NCBI GenBank assembly: GCA_016784965.1
Contig: JADHTQ010000048.1
Coordinates: forward strand, 1 to 34,144
Direction: 5' to 3'
Length of the DNA stretch: 34,144 nt
DNA from: Bacteriovoracaceae bacterium
GTDB lineage: Bacteria; Bdellovibrionota; Bacteriovoracia; Bacteriovoracales; Bacteriovoracaceae
How positions within the stretch are numbered: the stretch's first letter is position 1; each line of letters opens with the position of its first letter. The notes below the pieces were generated by a model, which saw only the letters and a program-made list of their open reading frames with translations, did no database searches and was not told the DNA's origin. Both the position numbers and the translations under genes were made by a program. Shown here piece after piece: positions 713 through 12,402 of this stretch.

Positions 713-1642
713 TTAATATAATTGAACGAGGTCCCCTTCTTGGACAGATCCACCAGAGTGCAAGATAGCAATAGAGCCATTTTCTCCGAAATAATCAATA
801 ACTTCGACAGTACCTTTAATTTCACCTTTTGACATGCCAAGAAGTGCCCCAGTCTCAGGATCGTAGACTTCAGTACCTTCTGTCATAATTTTTAAAATAT
901 CCCCCACATTCATGCCACTTCTTCTACCAGCATTTAAATAAATTTTAGTTCCAATAATTTTTGCGACTCTTCCAATCCAATCGAGTCTTGATGATATCTT
1001 AATAACTTTGGGAATGGCCCGTCTGATGGCAACTTTAACTGCATACCTGAGTAAATTCCTTCGAAACACAAGTTTTGACTCCCTATCAACATTAAAAAGT
1101 CGATAAGTTGTATCGTCTGTCGCTCCATGCATTGTTTCTGAAAAAATTTCTTTATTGGAGTTAATGTTAAAAATTCTAATTTCTACTTTGGCCTCACTAA
1201 AGGATTTGGTCGTTCTAACAAGCCCTATTTCGTCAGTTTTTTCCCGGACTCTGGCCTCTACAATACGTCCAAAAATCACAAAATTAATTCCCATAATACG
1301 GGCCTGCCGAGATAGTTGAATGAGCTTTACCCCACCTCCTGCATAAATCTCCTTAGAATTGCCAAAAGACTTCTTGCCAAGAGGGTCTACAATAAACTCT
1401 CCAGTGCCGTTTATTTCATGATTCAGCTCTTCGGTTGCAACAATAGCGAGATCTTCTCCACCATATGGGGCTTCATTGAATAAATTGAGTAAGGCCACTT
1501 TTTTCTTAATACCATTGTTAAATAGCGCTTTAGCATCTGAAACTGCAAGACCTTTATGGTTTCTTTGCACCACACCTTGGGAACAAGACAAAAGGCCTAT
1601 AAGCACAGTTAAGCTACTAGTCCATAACACAACATTCTTCAT
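713..1642 (-). CDS. Lipoprotein with CsgG-like and FlgT-C-like domains
   Basis: Exported lipoprotein of about 309 residues. The N-terminus is a lipoprotein signal with lipobox LLSC, so it should be anchored in a membrane by a lipidated Cys. The middle region (KKVALLNLFNEAPYGGEDLA and the later NFVIFGRIVEARV) resembles the CsgG/FlgT middle fold. The last 90 residues, with NVGDILKI, a YDPETGALLG motif and a closing EGDLVQLY, resemble the FlgT C-terminal beta domain. FlgT/CsgG-type proteins act at the periplasmic face of flagellar or secretion machinery; that role here is inferred. I chose the second of two close ATGs because AAGGGG lies 7 nt before it. It starts 11 nt past the stop of the upstream exported-protein gene, so the two are probably co-transcribed. 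Confidence 0.75.
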   Translation of the reverse strand: MKNVVLWTSSLTVLIGLLSCSQGVVQRNHKGLAVSDAKALFNNGIKKKVALLNLFNEAPYGGEDLAIVATEELNHEINGTGEFIVDPLGKKSFGNSKEIYAGGGVKLIQLSRQARIMGINFVIFGRIVEARVREKTDEIGLVRTTKSFSEAKVEIRIFNINSNKEIFSETMHGATDDTTYRLFNVDRESKLVFRRNLLRYAVKVAIRRAIPKVIKISSRLDWIGRVAKIIGTKIYLNAGRRSGMNVGDILKIMTEGTEVYDPETGALLGMSKGEIKGTVEVIDYFGENGSIAILHSGGSVQEGDLVQLY

Positions 1643-1653
1643 ATTCATGCCCC

Positions 1654-2991
1654 TTACTTCTTAGCTGTTTTTTCCAACGAAATGGAAAAAGTGTCGGGAT
1701 TAAAGGTTAGGCGGCGACTATCATCTAGCTTCAGGCCATCTAGTGAGAGAAGAAACTTATGCAAGTCTTCGCTAGATCCCCGATATGTTAAATTTATCTT
1801 GGCCTGATTCATATTATATTTAACTACAGATGTATGACAGCGTATGTGAGCGCCTTTTGTTTGCATCAAAGTATTTAACAAGTCCGTATCATAAATGTTT
1901 TTCATATTCTCCACAAATATTTCAGTATTGGACAAATCTATTGGCAAAAGACCCAACTTTGTTTTAAGTGGCGAAAGAGCAAGCAGTGGTAGCCTATACA
2001 TTTCACTTGCAACATTGGAACTAAGTTTGTGGAGATTGAGGGTTGAGTATTTATGTACTCGAGGCTTAAAATCGTCATGAGCAACAATTTTTGAGGTTGA
2101 AAAATCTAACAGAAAAAAGCCACCGCTAATAGCAAAGTCTCGCGTTTGTAGCAATTGATTGCTGGCAAGTTTTTCAACTTTTATATCTACTTTTAACCAA
2201 AGAGTATCAACACCATTTGAGTCCTCTTCTAAGCTGTTTTGGTCATTAAAAAAGTATGACTTTTCCTGCAAGTCAGCGTAGTTTTGGGTCAGTTGTTCAA
2301 TTTTTTGATCTGTAACAATAACTTCACCGATATACATCGATAGGTTTTCTTGGGCCCATTTTTTCCAGTGCTCTTTTACAACTGATGTCAGATCCTCAGA
2401 GGCCTCAACTCCTAAATCGGTCCAGTCCATATTGTTAATCTGAAACTCTGCTTGAATGTACATTTTCGAAAAATATCTATTTTGCTCGGGACTGGCCAAT
2501 AAGCGATAGTACAGCTTATTTAACAATTTACTATCAACTTTGGCGATAATGTTGATATATCTTGAGTTTGGGTACTGCAAAGAACGCCCCATTTTTTTTA
2601 TAGAATAGGAGCTAATTACTCTTGTAATGTTTTTAAAAGTGCTTTTTAGCTTTAATTTTTTTAAGCGCAATGCTTTGTTAAATTTGACCCCATACTTTTT
2701 CCCAAATTTTTCTTCAAACCGCTCCTTCATATTAATTTCGATGGGTGCCATATATGCTTCAAAGCTTGTATCAAAATTTTGCCAAAATAATTTGTTATCA
2801 AGTCCATGCAATTTTAATTTTTTATCAATTACATTTCTAAAGGCCTTATAAAGTAGTTGCTTTTTGATAAAACTTAAAGCATCGCCTTCGACTGAAAGAA
2901 AGCGCCCCTTGCCTCTTAAAAACGAGTCTGCACCATATGTCAATCCTGGTGAGCACAACAAGATAATCATGACTAAAATCTTATGTTTCAT
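1654..2991 (-). CDS. Exported protein of unknown family (possibly FlgT-N-like)
   Basis: Protein of 445 residues with a cleavable signal peptide (hydrophobic VMIILLCSPGLTYG, then ADS). The first mature segment, with FLRGKGRF followed by a long helix ending in KAFRNVID, loosely resembles the start of FlgT N-terminal domains, where a glycine strand is followed by an 'A..A...A' helix. The rest shows alternating strands and helices and no catalytic motif that I recognise. GAGGAAG lies just before the ATG. The start codon overlaps the dnaE stop by 4 bp (ATGA), so translation is coupled to dnaE, and the CsgG/FlgT-C-like lipoprotein follows directly. It could be the other half of a split FlgT-like assembly; this is inference. 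Presence and export are fairly certain, function is not. Confidence 0.65.
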   Translation of the reverse strand: MKHKILVMIILLCSPGLTYGADSFLRGKGRFLSVEGDALSFIKKQLLYKAFRNVIDKKLKLHGLDNKLFWQNFDTSFEAYMAPIEINMKERFEEKFGKKYGVKFNKALRLKKLKLKSTFKNITRVISSYSIKKMGRSLQYPNSRYINIIAKVDSKLLNKLYYRLLASPEQNRYFSKMYIQAEFQINNMDWTDLGVEASEDLTSVVKEHWKKWAQENLSMYIGEVIVTDQKIEQLTQNYADLQEKSYFFNDQNSLEEDSNGVDTLWLKVDIKVEKLASNQLLQTRDFAISGGFFLLDFSTSKIVAHDDFKPRVHKYSTLNLHKLSSNVASEMYRLPLLALSPLKTKLGLLPIDLSNTEIFVENMKNIYDTDLLNTLMQTKGAHIRCHTSVVKYNMNQAKINLTYRGSSEDLHKFLLSLDGLKLDDSRRLTFNPDTFSISLEKTAKK

Positions 2992-5900
2992 AAAGCTTCC
3001 TCAACTTTTCCATCTATTACATATTTTACCGCATTTGCACCCCAAATATCATTAACTTTTGCTGCCATCTGGGGGGTAGGGTTTACTAAAAATTCATCTC
3101 CCAAAGGAAGGCGTGCTCTGCCACCGTCATCATTAAAGATAATATGAAGTGGAACACTGCCTCGATACATAAGTAAAAGCTGTTTAAAGCTTTTTAATCT
3201 ACTGCTACTTAACTCTTTTAGTGACAAGTTAATCCGAACGCCGGTTATGCGATCTTCTGTTTGCTCCTGCAGCTTTCCGATTTTGGAGGGGAAAAACTTG
3301 CGAGGGCTCTCGGCCAGATTTATATGGCCATGCATAATTAATGGTTCATTGGCGGCAATCATTTGTTCATACTCTTCAAAAACCTTAGGAAATATTATAC
3401 ACTCAATTTTGCCAGAAAGATCTTCTAAAGTGGCAAAACACATTTTATGGCCCTTGCGACTAATAATATTTTTTCTTGAAACTATCATACCTGCCAATAT
3501 TACATCGCGTCGATCATCCCCTAACACATCTGGAATTTCAGCAATTGTCATAGAAGATACCTGAGTGATAACATTGTTAAATACATCTAAGGGATGGCCA
3601 GAGATATAGATACCCATAAGTTCGGCCTCTAAACTTAACTTTTCCCTTTGTGCCATATCTTCTACTTTTATAATATCCAACCAATCTTGGGGATTGCTGT
3701 TGCTATCTTTTTGATTTGCATCGATGAGATCAAATAGACTTACTTGCCCTAAACTTTCTTGCTCCTGTTTTTTGGCCGCATAGGTGGTAATTAACTCCAT
3801 ATTCTCAAGTAACGTCTTTCTATTATATGTTTCACAAGAATCAAAGGCACCAACTTTAATGAGTGACTCTAAAACTCTCTTATTGACAGCGCGAAAACTA
3901 ATTCTTTCACAAAAATTGATAAAGCCAGTATAGGGCCCATTTTCCTGTCGCTGCTTGATTATTTCACTGACGGCACCTTCGCCGACATTTTTAATGGCCC
4001 CCATACCAAAGCGAATGTTTTTACCAACAACATTAAATGGCCACAGGGATTCATTGATATCTGGTGGTAACACTTCAATGTCAAATAATTTTGCATCATT
4101 TATATAAGCTGTTACTTTATCGGTGTTACTGAGTTCTGTACTAAGCAGGGCCGCAAAAAATGGTGCGGGATAATAGGCCTTTAAAAAGGCAGTTTGGTAG
4201 GCAATAAGAGCGTAAGCCACCGCATGTGACTTATTAAAACCATAGGCCGCAAAGTTGGCCATTAAGTCGTATAAATTGGCCGCCTTTTCTTCATCAAAGT
4301 TATTCTTTTTAGCACCTTCTAAAAAGATCTCGCGGTGACGTTGCATCTCTGCATCTTTTTTTTTGCCCATTGCCCTTCTGAGCATATCTGCTTGCCCTAG
4401 GCTATAGCCTGCCACAATTCGTGCTATATTCATCACTTGCTCTTGGTAGACGATTACTCCATAAGTATCTTTGAGGGTCGACTCCAGTTGAGGAAATGGA
4501 AACACAAGCTCAGATCTGCCATGCTTGACCTCAATGAAGTCATCAACCATCCCCGACTCTAAAGGACCGGGCCGATAGAGAGCGTTGATTGCTGTAATAT
4601 CTTCTAAGGTGCTGGGCATAATTCTTTTGCACAAATCAATCATACCAGAGGATTCAAGTTGAAAAACTCCAATCGTCTGTCCTTTTGAAATGAATTGATA
4701 AATGTGTGGATCTTCTAAATCGATCTCTTCTATATCAAATGAAGCATCGTGATCGCGTCTAATAAAAGAGACCGCATTGGCAATAACAGTAAGAGTTTTA
4801 AGTCCTAAAAAATCAAACTTAATAAGCCCGGTCATCTCTGAAAAATCTTTATCAAACTGACAGACTTGCTCGCCCTCTTTGCCTTTAAATAGCGGTGCAT
4901 GCTTCACTAGAGGCTCATTAGTAATGATAACTCCAGCGGCATGAATTGAAGCATGCCTTAAAAGCCCCTCAAGCCTCTTAGAAACTTTCATGATTTGCTT
5001 TATCTTGGGGTCACTTTCAATGAGTTCTCCTAGCTTCGGCTCAAGCTCCAATGCCTTATCTAGAGTCATCTTAAGTTCATCGGGGATCAACTTAGCGATC
5101 ATGTCGGCTTCTGAGTATGGTAGATCAAACACCCGACTCACGTCGCGTATAACTCCCTTTGCTAGCATCTTGCCAAAGGTGATGATTTGCCCCACCCGCT
5201 CGGCCCCATATTTTTGCGTGACATACTCAATCACTTCAGATCGCCTAGTCTGACAAAAGTCGATATCAAAGTCCGGCATGGTGACTCTTTCTGGATTGAT
5301 AAAGCGCTCAAATAGCAAGTTAAAAGGGATGGGATTGATATTGGTGATTAAAAGGGAGTAGGCCACAAGTGATCCTGCACCAGAGCCGCGCCCAGGACCT
5401 ACTGGGATATCATTTTCCTTAGACCATTTAATGAAGTCTGAAACTATTAAGAAGTAGCCGGCAAAGCCCATTTCTATGATCATTGCGATCTCTTCTTCTA
5501 GCCTCTTGTGATACATGGGTTTTATAAGTGATTCCCAATTTTGCTCTTGTTTAATCTTAGCAAAATGTGGGCCTTGAAATCGCTTTAATAGCCCCTCTTT
5601 GGAAACTCTGGCAAAATACTCATCTGTGGTTTCAGATGTATTTATTTCAAAGTCTGGAATATGATAAATCTGATTGCCCGCTTTATCCTTCCAATTAAGT
5701 TCAACATTACACTGACTGGCAATTTTTAAGGTATTGTCACAGGCCGATATGTGCTCAGAAAATGCATCTCTCATAATGTCTGGAGATTTAAAATAAAACT
5801 CATCGCTGGAGAGTTTCATGCGCTTTTCATCTTGCAGGGTTTTGCCAGTTTGGATACACAGTAACACTTCCTGAGCAGTAGCATCATCTCTGTTTAGATA

Positions 5901-6596
5901 GTGACAATCATTAGTCGCAACTAATGGCAAACCAGAGCTACTGGCATAAGAAATAATTTTTTTATTTATTTTGGCCTGTTCAGGTAAACCATTTTCTTGA
6001 ATTTCAAGATACAAGTCATCTTTAAAAATGCCGTGTAACTTGGAGATGGCCTCATGGGCCAACTTGTCCTCCCCTGTAAAAAAGTGATAACCAACATCTC
6101 CTTTTAAACAGGCAGTGGTCGCGATTAGCCCTTCACTATAGCGGGACAATACTTCGTAATCAATTCTTGGTTTATAGTAAAAGCCTTCTAAGTAGCCAAT
6201 TGAAACTAACTTACATAAATTCTGATACCCAATATTATTTTTACACAGCAAAACCAAATGATGAATTTGATGCCCCGATTCTACTTCATCTTGGCCTGCT
6301 GCCACTGCATTTTTTCTGACAACAATTTTTCGATCCAACCTAGAGCCTGTGGTCATGTAAACTTCACATCCAATGATCGGTTTAATGCCTGCATCCTTTG
6401 CTCTTGTATAAAAGTCAATCGCCCCAAACATATTACCGTGATCAGTCATGGCCACAGCAGGCATATTATATTCTTTGGCCTTTGAAAATAGATCCTGCAA
6501 GCGGATGGCACCATCTAAGAGCGAGTATTGGGTGTGCAAATGTAGATGTACAAAACTACTTGAGTCTTTGTGATCTAGTGAGCAGGGATCGGGCAT
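2988..6596 (-). CDS. dnaE: DNA polymerase III subunit alpha
   Basis: Replicative polymerase of about 1,200 residues, full length for a DnaE1-type enzyme. The N-terminal PHP domain begins with HLHLHTQYSLLDGA. The catalytic palm carries the PDFDIDF aspartates at about residue 440 and the third acidic residue in KFDFLGLKTLTV at about residue 594. A helix-hairpin-helix region follows, then an OB-fold (ILAGMIVSRKNIISRKG) near residue 1040 that contacts single-stranded DNA. It synthesises the chromosome as part of the replisome. I prefer the ATG at 6596 because GGAG stands 9 nt upstream; the in-frame ATG 15 nt earlier has no ribosome binding site. It heads a coupled cluster with the exported protein and lipoprotein downstream. 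It is divergent from the FHA gene across a 170 bp spacer holding a palindrome. Confidence 0.97.
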   Translation of the reverse strand: MPDPCSLDHKDSSSFVHLHLHTQYSLLDGAIRLQDLFSKAKEYNMPAVAMTDHGNMFGAIDFYTRAKDAGIKPIIGCEVYMTTGSRLDRKIVVRKNAVAAGQDEVESGHQIHHLVLLCKNNIGYQNLCKLVSIGYLEGFYYKPRIDYEVLSRYSEGLIATTACLKGDVGYHFFTGEDKLAHEAISKLHGIFKDDLYLEIQENGLPEQAKINKKIISYASSSGLPLVATNDCHYLNRDDATAQEVLLCIQTGKTLQDEKRMKLSSDEFYFKSPDIMRDAFSEHISACDNTLKIASQCNVELNWKDKAGNQIYHIPDFEINTSETTDEYFARVSKEGLLKRFQGPHFAKIKQEQNWESLIKPMYHKRLEEEIAMIIEMGFAGYFLIVSDFIKWSKENDIPVGPGRGSGAGSLVAYSLLITNINPIPFNLLFERFINPERVTMPDFDIDFCQTRRSEVIEYVTQKYGAERVGQIITFGKMLAKGVIRDVSRVFDLPYSEADMIAKLIPDELKMTLDKALELEPKLGELIESDPKIKQIMKVSKRLEGLLRHASIHAAGVIITNEPLVKHAPLFKGKEGEQVCQFDKDFSEMTGLIKFDFLGLKTLTVIANAVSFIRRDHDASFDIEEIDLEDPHIYQFISKGQTIGVFQLESSGMIDLCKRIMPSTLEDITAINALYRPGPLESGMVDDFIEVKHGRSELVFPFPQLESTLKDTYGVIVYQEQVMNIARIVAGYSLGQADMLRRAMGKKKDAEMQRHREIFLEGAKKNNFDEEKAANLYDLMANFAAYGFNKSHAVAYALIAYQTAFLKAYYPAPFFAALLSTELSNTDKVTAYINDAKLFDIEVLPPDINESLWPFNVVGKNIRFGMGAIKNVGEGAVSEIIKQRQENGPYTGFINFCERISFRAVNKRVLESLIKVGAFDSCETYNRKTLLENMELITTYAAKKQEQESLGQVSLFDLIDANQKDSNSNPQDWLDIIKVEDMAQREKLSLEAELMGIYISGHPLDVFNNVITQVSSMTIAEIPDVLGDDRRDVILAGMIVSRKNIISRKGHKMCFATLEDLSGKIECIIFPKVFEEYEQMIAANEPLIMHGHINLAESPRKFFPSKIGKLQEQTEDRITGVRINLSLKELSSSRLKSFKQLLLMYRGSVPLHIIFNDDGGRARLPLGDEFLVNPTPQMAAKVNDIWGANAVKYVIDGKVEEAL

Positions 6597-6688
6597 GAAT
6601 GTGGTCTCCATAAAAATATTTGTCGAAACAATACCATAACGGGATAAGTAGATAAAGATAGAAACCCTTGCCGCAATGCCTCTTTTGT

Positions 6689-10424: not shown

Positions 10425-10616
10425 TTAATACTCAAGCATCTGAGTAATTTTTACTTTTAAGAGGGCATATCCCCTACCATATGTTCTAATTGTTTTAAAA
10501 AATAATTGGTGGGCACGCTCCATGAGTTGATCACTATCTTCTAGTTTAGATATAAGCTTCAAGTAATGCGACTTCATCTTTTCAAGTTCGACTTCGCAGT
10601 GATCTATAATGTCCAT
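10425..10616 (-). CDS. Small helical protein of unknown function
   Basis: Sixty-three residues, cytoplasmic, predicted almost entirely helical with charged heptads (EVELEKMKSHYLKLISKLED), so it may form a coiled coil or helical bundle. I recognise no family. It is considered real because AGGGGAG stands just before the ATG and a good promoter lies upstream (-35 and -10 spaced 17 bp, 10658-10686). It stands alone between the antiporter start and the divergent small membrane-protein gene. Confidence 0.6.
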   Translation of the reverse strand: MDIIDHCEVELEKMKSHYLKLISKLEDSDQLMERAHQLFFKTIRTYGRGYALLKVKITQMLEY

Positions 10617-10657
10617 GGTTCTCCCCTGCTATATGTTTTTTTAGTTTTGGTATAAAA

Positions 10658-10686
10658 TTGATACATAGCAGACAGCTTAATGTCAA
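10658..10686 (-). promoter_or_regulatory. Sigma70-like promoter for the small helical protein gene
   Basis: On the minus strand a perfect -35 TTGACA (10681-10686) is followed after exactly 17 bp by TATCAA (10658-10663), which matches the -10 consensus at four of six positions. Transcription would start near 10650, about 35 bp before the start codon at 10616. Confidence 0.6.
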
Positions 10687-10830
10687 ACTGTTTTGCTCAA
10701 CAATGTGCTGATCCAAAATTATAAATAATTTAAGTAGATATTATAAACTATTGATTAGTTTAATAAAAAAAGTTAATCTCTTTAGTATTATTTTATTAAA
10801 AGTTACATATAATTAACAAGGGTGTGAATT

Positions 10831-11070
10831 ATGTTTGGAGCATTAAGGGCAATTGGAGCGCCAGAAGTTGAATTGGTCAAGGGTCCAGGAGGAAAACTTG
10901 TTGAAATTGGGGCAATGAAAGGCCCATTACCCAAAGCAGCAGCACCAAAAGCTGCAGCTGCCACTAAGGGGTTATTTGGGTTGGGTGCTTTTGGACCTTA
11001 TGTAGGGATAGCAATTTTAGTCGGAATTGGATATCTCATTTGGAAACAAACGAAGGTCAACAAATATTAA
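10831..11070 (+). CDS. Small membrane protein resembling Mms6/MamG magnetosome proteins
   Basis: Seventy-nine residues. An N-terminal soluble part is followed by an Ala/Pro/Lys-rich stretch (KAAAPKAAAATKG, about residues 37-49). Then comes GLFGLGAFGP, a single membrane helix (GIAILVGIGYLIW) and a short basic tail. The order of an Ala/Lys-rich linker, an LG-type repeat ending in aromatic-Gly-Pro, one helix and a basic end is the layout of Mms6 and MamG, whose repeat ends in GAWGP. The acidic iron-binding tail of Mms6 is absent, so MamG is the closer analogue. AAGGG stands about 9 nt before the ATG. A second small membrane ORF follows within 40 bp. The resemblance is from memory of those proteins and could be convergence of a low-complexity peptide. 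That the gene is real is more certain than its family. Confidence 0.6.
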   Translation: MFGALRAIGAPEVELVKGPGGKLVEIGAMKGPLPKAAAPKAAAATKGLFGLGAFGPYVGIAILVGIGYLIWKQTKVNKY

Positions 11071-11093
11071 GAGAGCTTATTTGGGAGAATTAA

Positions 11094-11274
11094 ATGGAAT
11101 CAGCGATTGAACAAAAGGCAAGTTGCTCTTGTAATCATTCCTTTTGTTGGGCAGATTGCTTTTTTAATATCAGCGGTACTGTGTTTGATTTTTACTTTTT
11201 TGGGAATGATCAATGCGATACTGGGCAGATATTGGGAAATGCCAATTGTTAGAAACTATACCCCAGAAATTTAA
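11094..11274 (+). pseudogene. Frameshifted DUF4870/MamF-like small membrane protein
   Basis: A good ribosome binding site (GGGAG, 6 nt spacing) points to ATG 11094, but that frame soon gives a Cys/Phe-rich peptide ending at 11252. The +1 frame from about 11107 to the TAA at 11272-11274 encodes a convincing membrane peptide of 55 residues: RQVALVIIPFVGQIAFL, a second hydrophobic helix, then GMINAILGRYWEMPIV. The latter matches the closing helix and 'G-x-Y-x-x-P' end of DUF4870 proteins, the family that includes MamF and MmsF. Skipping one base near 11121 would fuse MESAIEQKA to VALVIIPF. It may therefore be a frameshifted gene, a sequencing error near CAAAAGG, or a half-length protein starting at TTG 11107. 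The usual N-terminal half of DUF4870 is missing in every case. It lies 23 bp after the Mms6/MamG-like gene. Confidence 0.5.
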
Positions 11275-11287
11275 GTCAAGAATTTCA

Positions 11288-11518
11288 CTATCTCAACAGC
11301 TTTTTAGATTCAAACTGATTACTCTTTCTTGAGCCATTTTCGTCATATTCAAGTGACGATAAAGAAGTTAGTTTACCGTTAATCATAACTCCAATTCCAC
11401 GCATAATCTCAAACAAATCTTTATTTAATTTATAGTCCTTGCCCAAAGCATCTTCTAAAAAAGGGACGATCCTGCTCAGTGTATCGATTGTTTCTTGATC
11501 TTCCTCTTTGTGGCCCAT
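11288..11518 (-). CDS. Small acidic/charged protein of unknown function
   Basis: Seventy-six residues, cytoplasmic, no membrane segment. The N-terminal two thirds look helical (TIDTLSRIVPFLEDALGKDY) and the C-terminus is basic (KSNQFESKKLLR). No family is recognised. The start is supported by GGAGAG 6 nt upstream. It converges on the DUF4870-like ORF with a 13 bp gap and is divergent from the exported protein at 11689. I consider it a real small gene on the strength of its ribosome binding site and ordinary composition. Confidence 0.55.
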   Translation of the reverse strand: MGHKEEDQETIDTLSRIVPFLEDALGKDYKLNKDLFEIMRGIGVMINGKLTSLSSLEYDENGSRKSNQFESKKLLR

Positions 11519-11629
11519 ATTGATCTCTCCATGTGAAAATGTTATCTGATAAGTTACACTTTTGAACTATCTATTATGATACACGATTCATCTAAATCCT
11601 CAAAGATTATGAAAAAAATTCACAAGCCG

Positions 11630-11658
11630 TTGACGCATCGCACCCATCAATGTATACT
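11630..11658 (+). promoter_or_regulatory. Sigma70 promoter for the exported protein at 11689
   Basis: TTGACG (11630-11635, five of six -35 positions) and TATACT (11653-11658, five of six -10 positions) are separated by exactly 17 bp. Transcription would begin near 11665, about 24 bp before the ATG. An imperfect TATGA/TTCACA inverted repeat lies just upstream around 11608-11624. Confidence 0.75.
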
Positions 11659-11688
11659 ATTTTTTCATAACGCCAATGAGGAAGCCAT

Positions 11689-12402
11689 ATGCCCAAATTT
11701 CACTTAGTTATAATCATAGTTGTTTTTACAAACCTATATTGCCCCACATCTTTTGCTCTGCCCAACGAACTAGATCAAATCGATATGATCATCCAAATGG
11801 AAGAGGCATTTTTTAACAAAACTTCACACAATGTTCACTGCCAATGGATCGGCCGTGAGCAATGTTATGAAGGGCTTGTAAAACTAATGCAAATTGAGCA
11901 GGACTTTCCCATAGTGGGGCAAGACGTAATAATGACGAATACTTTTGACAACGTATATTTTCAAGATGTCGATATTGACCAGGACCTTTGGCTTAATACC
12001 GATATTTGGTTAGATTATAAAGCACCCCCTGCTGTGATGCTTGCTCACTTTAAAAAACTTAATGATAATTTTAAACAACTCTACGAACATAGAAAAACTA
12101 AACAAATTAACCAACGAGAGCTTCATAGCGTTGTTAAGTTATTTTACTCTACTACAGGATTTCAGATAAGCTGTGATATTTCTGTTTCAGATGGCCAGTG
12201 TTTAAAAGGCGCCAAAACCTTGCTTAAAAGTGTGCCCACCACACTTATTCAACAAAATATCAATATAACGAATCAGGTGTATGGCCTACCTTATGATAGT
12301 AGTACAATTTGTGTGAATTTTTCTGATAACCCCCAAGAGATGATAACTTATTTGGCAACTAAGCTTGGCTTGCCCCTCAGTGACTATTTAGAGCTCAGGT
12401 AA
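11689..12402 (+). CDS. Exported protein of unknown function
   Basis: Protein of 237 residues with a signal peptide (LVIIIVVFTNLYCPTSFA, cleavage before LPNE). The mature part contains five Cys (including CQWIGREQCYEG, ISCDISVSDGQC and TICVN) that could form disulfides in the periplasm or outside. It is otherwise mixed in secondary structure with no catalytic signature that I recognise. It has a strong promoter with correct 17 bp spacing, and GAGGAA stands close before the ATG. Its last 15 bp overlap the 3' end of the converging gene. The gene is well supported; the function is unknown. Confidence 0.65.
   Translation: MPKFHLVIIIVVFTNLYCPTSFALPNELDQIDMIIQMEEAFFNKTSHNVHCQWIGREQCYEGLVKLMQIEQDFPIVGQDVIMTNTFDNVYFQDVDIDQDLWLNTDIWLDYKAPPAVMLAHFKKLNDNFKQLYEHRKTKQINQRELHSVVKLFYSTTGFQISCDISVSDGQCLKGAKTLLKSVPTTLIQQNINITNQVYGLPYDSSTICVNFSDNPQEMITYLATKLGLPLSDYLELR

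Follow-up and report, generated by a model that had tools for sequence, protein, structure and literature searches.

The locus at positions 10831–11274 of the window (the whole 34,144-nt stretch of Bacteriovoracaceae DNA analysed here, contig JADHTQ010000048.1) very probably holds, judging from sequence comparisons, two accessory magnetosome-membrane genes paired as in mms6-mmsF and mamG-mamF, in a Bdellovibrionota-type host that carries its magnetosome cluster on another contig. The host genome (G000) is a draft in 126 contigs. An earlier sequence-only reading had pointed to two small adjacent ORFs on the plus strand. Both are real, as indicated by their coordinates, by the AAGGG and ATG of the first ORF, by scores beyond chance and by the repetition of the pair in SI034_bin15 (JABGUH01; G039), a genome of the same family and a different genus. 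The likeness to mms6-mmsF and mamG-mamF is upheld by intermediate sequences from G039, by synteny with Alphaproteobacteria and by a magnetosome cluster on contig C81 of G000.

ORF1 (10831–11070, plus strand) is an intact, Mms6/MamG-like gene of 79 aa with an ATG start and, 8 nt 5' of it, a sequence resembling a ribosome-binding site (AAGGG, 10818–10822). The features originally described are all present: the linker rich in Ala and Lys, the GLFGLGAFGP stretch, a single hydrophobic helix and the basic tail. The N-terminal motif, EVELVKGPGGKLVE (10864–10905), is otherwise present only in two G039 proteins. The alignments identified GLFGLGAFGP (10969–10998) as a shortened Gly-Leu segment with a GP end, followed by a single predicted membrane helix, YVGIAILVGIGYLIW (10999–11043, by inspection), which aligns with the helix region of Mms6, MamG and MamD, and by the C-terminal tail KQTKVNKY (11044–11067). 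ORF1 therefore has a reduced form of the Gly-Leu repeat, GP end and single helix typical of the Mms6/MamG/MamD family. The acidic magnetite-interacting tail of Mms6 proper is absent (KQTKVNKY versus acidic Mms6 tails), as the first reading had stated for the iron-binding tail.

The profile search proposed in that reading gave weak results: ORF1 had no Pfam or NCBIfam match at E ≤ 10, and ORF2 matched DUF4870 at E 0.038. A genome-wide search with a Mms6/MamG/MamD domain profile built without G000 sequences also missed ORF1 at E ≤ 1. Under the refuting condition set in that reading, direct family searches of this kind would not have sufficed by themselves, and relatives were therefore examined. 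With a domain HMM from Alphaproteobacteria, again without G000, ORF1 scored 12.5 bits, a value equalled or exceeded by 5 of 20,000 shuffled sequences; with the G039 domain HMM it scored 19.5 bits, above all 20,000. Against the G039 paralogues C37a and C18a, the scores were 27.8 and 28.7 bits (highest of 20,000 ORF1 shuffles, 15.9), with 48% and 44% identity over the aligned columns, and the alignment spans the E(V/I)EL(V/I)KGPGG(K/R)L(V/I)E motif and the Gly-Leu-GP-helix segment. A model of the N-terminal motif, trained on ORF1 and the G039 copies themselves, gave 35.6 bits for ORF1, 37.6–39.6 for the G039 copies and 8.5 for the next ORF. The G039 homologues of ORF1 match MamD (1.3e-8), Mms6 (1.4e-5) and MamG (8e-5). 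ORF1 thus appears to belong to the Mms6/MamG/MamD Gly-Leu family through these intermediates, although no family model matched it significantly when searched directly; this placement follows from the G039 homologues and synteny, as its own match to the Mms6 model is weak.

Among 97 genomes (the window's own and its relatives), both genes were found only in G039 (ORF1, E 1e-4; ORF2, E 2.9e-13). On its contig C37, a 131-aa Mms6-like gene is followed, after about 65 bp, by a complete 104-aa MmsF-like gene, in the order seen in the window. The pair is therefore kept together in a related genome, as had been asked of it, and this support from outside the window's genome comes from one genome, G039. 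The sequence-only reading had also allowed for chance. The weak direct profile scores of ORF1 fit a chance likeness of two short hydrophobic, low-complexity ORFs, but this is extremely improbable given the outcome of the ORF1 shuffles (27.8–28.7 bits against 15.9), the 43% identity of ORF2 to the G039 MmsF-like protein (E 2.9e-13) and the identical order of the two genes in G039.

G039 has six Mms6-domain genes, scattered across four contigs. A full-length MamD on C19 (L014:10973-11995; 207.8 bits, above the NCBIfam curated cut-off) has no adjoining mam genes that we could see, and on C18 a BufA2-type bufferin metallophore gene and the two genes following it (L007:7256-9238) adjoin two Mms6-domain genes. 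In the window, dnaE and the two genes following it (713–6611) are syntenic with G039 C42, two of the three at 62–64% identity; given this synteny, the contig does not look like an obvious contaminant. On C42, a few kb separate dnaE from a Mms6-domain gene (L016:9571-9972), which is on its other side.

ORF2 (11107–11274, plus strand) has a TTG start and encodes 55 aa with two hydrophobic stretches and a C-terminus ending in GMINAILGRYWEMPIVRNYTPEI. Its conserved segment (11122–11274, stop codon at 11272–11274) aligns, through to the terminal GRYWEMP, with residues 54–103 of the 104-residue MmsF-like protein of G039 at 42–43% identity over 49–50 residues (E 2.9e-13 per genome). The two-helix peptide described earlier does have its two hydrophobic stretches, but it represents no more than the second half of a protein of the MamF/MmsF type, and its own frame has neither an ATG nor an obvious ribosome-binding site. 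This frame is that of ORF1 and is open upstream as far as the ORF1 stop (67 open codons). Relative to the complete three-helix MmsF/MamF protein with its FHA(K/R)QG loop, ORF2 lacks the first half, comprising the first helix and the loop. The match to DUF4870 covers the last part of the profile at 14.6 bits, which is not low for half a protein, because true MmsF and MamF themselves remain under the cut-off (13.9 and 19.1 bits). A DUF4870 search across G000 gave no matches, and even genuine MmsF and MamF, used as queries, drew no MamF/MmsF model from NCBIfam. Changes in the MmsF segment are distributed 20/11/29 over codon positions 1, 2 and 3, a pattern that fits a protein-coding past.

About 170 bp of the G039 gene are absent from the window's mmsF. 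The N-terminal half of MmsF was not found in any frame of positions 10601–11700, nor elsewhere in G000; this genome, 97.5% complete, yielded no second MmsF. A GGGAG sequence (11083–11087) and an ATG (11094), together spanning 11083–11096 on the plus strand, probably correspond to the former mmsF start, in a frame other than that of the mmsF-like segment. Programmed frameshifting from this ATG into ORF2 was considered and rejected: no classic slip site was seen, and the missing first half would not be restored. By these comparisons ORF2 is a truncated gene, either in reality or through assembly. It is unlikely that the truncation arose in assembly or sequencing and that living cells carry an entire mmsF. 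The draft state of the genome (126 contigs) and the good start site 28 nt ahead of the surviving segment speak for an artefact, but some 170 bp would have to be lost inside a contig with good flanking sequence on both sides, and the N-terminal half did not turn up elsewhere in G000. We favour a real truncation, in which a deletion of about 170 bp within the gene would have taken the first half of mmsF, and with it, we infer, MmsF function; ORF2 would be the remainder, a two-helix piece that may or may not be produced.

The suggestion that the locus is a remnant is thus borne out for ORF2, which has lost its first half; for ORF1 there is no demonstration of it. It is possible, although rather doubtful, that both genes are dying relics, with mmsF cut by the deletion, ORF1 drifting as an orphan and the pair now idle. 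The out-of-frame start and missing first half of ORF2, the lack of a second MmsF and the separation of the pair from the cluster would be expected under such decay, and ORF1 is shorter than its G039 homologues, with a worn-down Gly-Leu repeat. However, the frame of ORF1 is unbroken, its ribosome-binding site and conserved N-terminal motif are still there, 67 open codons remain in ORF2, and substitutions in the ORF1 motif avoid codon position 2 (2 of 13 against C37a and 2 of 18 against C18a), a pattern that also reflects the time preceding any decay.

The G000 contig C81 carries magnetochrome MCR domains above cut-off and matches to MamI (3.5e-19), MamA (2e-35), MamQ (8e-19), MamB (5e-38), MamM (8e-61), MamN (6e-91) and the permease part of a MamO-like protein; its MCR/PDZ and protease proteins match MamE/MamO, and FeoB-like genes also lie around the MCR domains (by inspection). 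The cluster is collinear with that of G039, mostly at 50–80% identity. By gene content, with this mamAB-type cluster, G000 is magnetotactic. The cluster spans L030:14304-18500 and L031:1-18701 (about 112300–135100 of C81); one of its proteins combines magnetochrome repeats and PDZ (L031:527-2170), protease and PDZ occur as separate proteins instead of one MamE, and two FeoB-like genes and a Fur-like gene lie beside it. A 126-aa Gly/Ala-rich protein at the cluster edge (L030:14304-14684, minus strand) was considered as a second paralogue of ORF1, as its N-terminus, VETEVIRGIGGKVVAVE, resembles that of ORF1; it was rejected (4.2 bits with the N-terminal motif model, rank 510 against 20,000 shuffles), and its high score with a phylum-wide profile is circular, since the sequence was in that profile. 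It has a single helix, a Mms6-like architecture and no significant match, and is a candidate only.

The G039 pair directly adjoins an actin-like block (C37, L006:9330-19923), which is collinear with a counterpart on G000 contig C102 (L110:4860-17134). The block comprises a Clp-like AAA protein, three actin-like proteins, one of which matches MamK (2e-10), a MinD-like protein and a large coiled-coil/response-regulator protein; it resembles the actin/coiled-coil (mad) sets of deep-branching magnetotactic bacteria (PMC12748827, PMC13200544). A C-terminal tail, KPKxRxNYxExRxKxxQKKVxF, is shared by otherwise unlike proteins, one of them with a Mms6 Gly-Leu/helix domain. It occurs in G039 (4 copies), G000 (8.8e-10), G338 (8e-4) and, weakly, G019, all cluster-bearing (L006:12642-13169, L015:1221-2246, L007:9895-10299, G000 C102:42572-42691, G338 C61:11833-11952 and G019 C31:44829-44963). 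This tail may be an address or tether tag joining magnetosomes to actin-like filaments.

Defining cluster-bearing genomes as those with three MamI-like places with best E < 1e-10, we found 8 among 369 genomes of the phylum. An ORF1-type gene is present in two of these eight (G000 and G039) and in none of the other 361; the phylum-wide profile (A3) included ORF1, so its G000 hits are circular. Convincing MmsF-type matches were likewise restricted to G000 and G039 in the 369 genomes, with weak partial matches in three others. The co-occurrence of pair and cluster gave a Fisher p = 4e-4, uncorrected for shared ancestry. In named genomes, a scan with an MmsF-like alignment recovered G039 and eight magnetotactic Alphaproteobacteria only (36–39% identity); this alignment held one MmsF sequence, so its patterns are biased towards MmsF, and the tblastn confirmation used the G039 protein. 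The sequence-only reading had also raised a non-magnetic membrane organelle or envelope system. The position of the pair outside the cluster and the lack of an acidic iron-binding tail in ORF1 could suit such a role, but it is made very unlikely by the restriction of the pair to cluster-bearing genomes, by the MamK-family match in the block adjoining the G039 pair and by the MmsF-like relatives, all of which are from magnetotactic bacteria.

Mms6 (L066–L069) or MamG (L071, L072) lies directly upstream of MmsF/MamF in the alphaproteobacterial loci checked, so that a gene of this kind immediately precedes mmsF/mamF there, in G039 and in the window. ORF1 resembles Mms6 of the Magnetospirillum/Paramagnetospirillum mms6-mmsF operon in lying just 5' of mmsF and in having an N-terminal domain, a Gly-Leu segment with a GP end, one helix and a short tail. 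However, it lacks the acidic magnetite-interacting tail, has a reduced Gly-Leu repeat, lies outside the magnetosome cluster and bears a KGPGG N-terminal motif not seen in the alphaproteobacterial proteins. With MamG of the mamGFDC operon it shares small size, the Gly-Leu-GP-helix domain, basic residues in the tail and a mamF-type neighbour, but its N-terminus is different and neither mamD nor mamC is alongside in the window. ORF2, in turn, corresponds to the residue 54–103 part of MmsF/MamF, the DUF4870-like three-helix magnetosome protein, without the first helix and FHARQG loop.

In AMB-1, Mms6 is built from four parts: the N-terminal domain, the Gly-Leu repeat, the helix and a magnetite-interacting acidic region. 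Membrane localisation depends on the Gly-Leu region, conditional localisation is set by the N-terminal domain, which can confer it on MmsF as well, and the protein localises without needing its acidic region (PMC11332177). Of these four, ORF1 retains the first three, each altered, and has no counterpart of the fourth. By analogy, ORF1 is probably a small magnetosome-membrane protein, laid out as a KGPGG motif and Ala/Pro/Lys linker, a short Gly-Leu segment that would aid membrane insertion, a helix and a basic tail. The Gly-Leu/helix part would put the protein into the magnetosome membrane, and the N-terminus would control the timing of its entry, as in the Mms6 domain experiments (PMC11332177). 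Because the acidic region is absent, the tail would not bind iron, and ORF1 would act as a membrane packing or scaffold partner, MamG-like, rather than an iron-binding crystal nucleator. The chances that it has a role in crystal growth are, on this analogy, about even.

Outside Proteobacteria, mms6/mmsF have been reported only from Nitrospinota and SAR324 (PMC7602337). Bergot et al. mention, in the main text of PMC13200544, that two genera of Bacteriovoracia, sampled in Saanich Inlet and the Black Sea, have clusters (G039 probably belongs to the Saanich Inlet genus), and their survey of magnetotactic Bdellovibrionota sought 22 mam/mad genes. G000 resembles the clusters described there in carrying a mamAB-type cluster, on C81, with actin-like genes at another place; unlike G000, these clusters are presented in that main text with no mention of mms-type genes. 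In the main texts of the open-access literature, a gene pair of the mms6-mmsF kind is unreported in Bdellovibrionota; also new, within the same scope, are the position off the cluster, the form with a KGPGG motif and no acidic tail, and the truncated mmsF.

Annotating clusters alone misses genes outside them. We tentatively suggest that part of the Bdellovibrionota may have a module of its own for crystal control, made of genes of the mms6/mamD/mmsF kind scattered outside the mamAB cluster and built in part on Mms6-like proteins that lack the acidic tail and carry a new N-terminal motif, and that this module may be being lost in the window's lineage; such bacteria should then grow crystals unlike the bullet-shaped crystals of other Bdellovibrionota. 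For the question of what sets crystal shape, the six Mms6-domain proteins and MmsF of G039, set beside the broken-mmsF pair of G000, offer a natural comparison among related magnetotactic genomes: those that keep the module, those in which it is decaying, and the six other cluster-bearing genomes, which apparently lack it.
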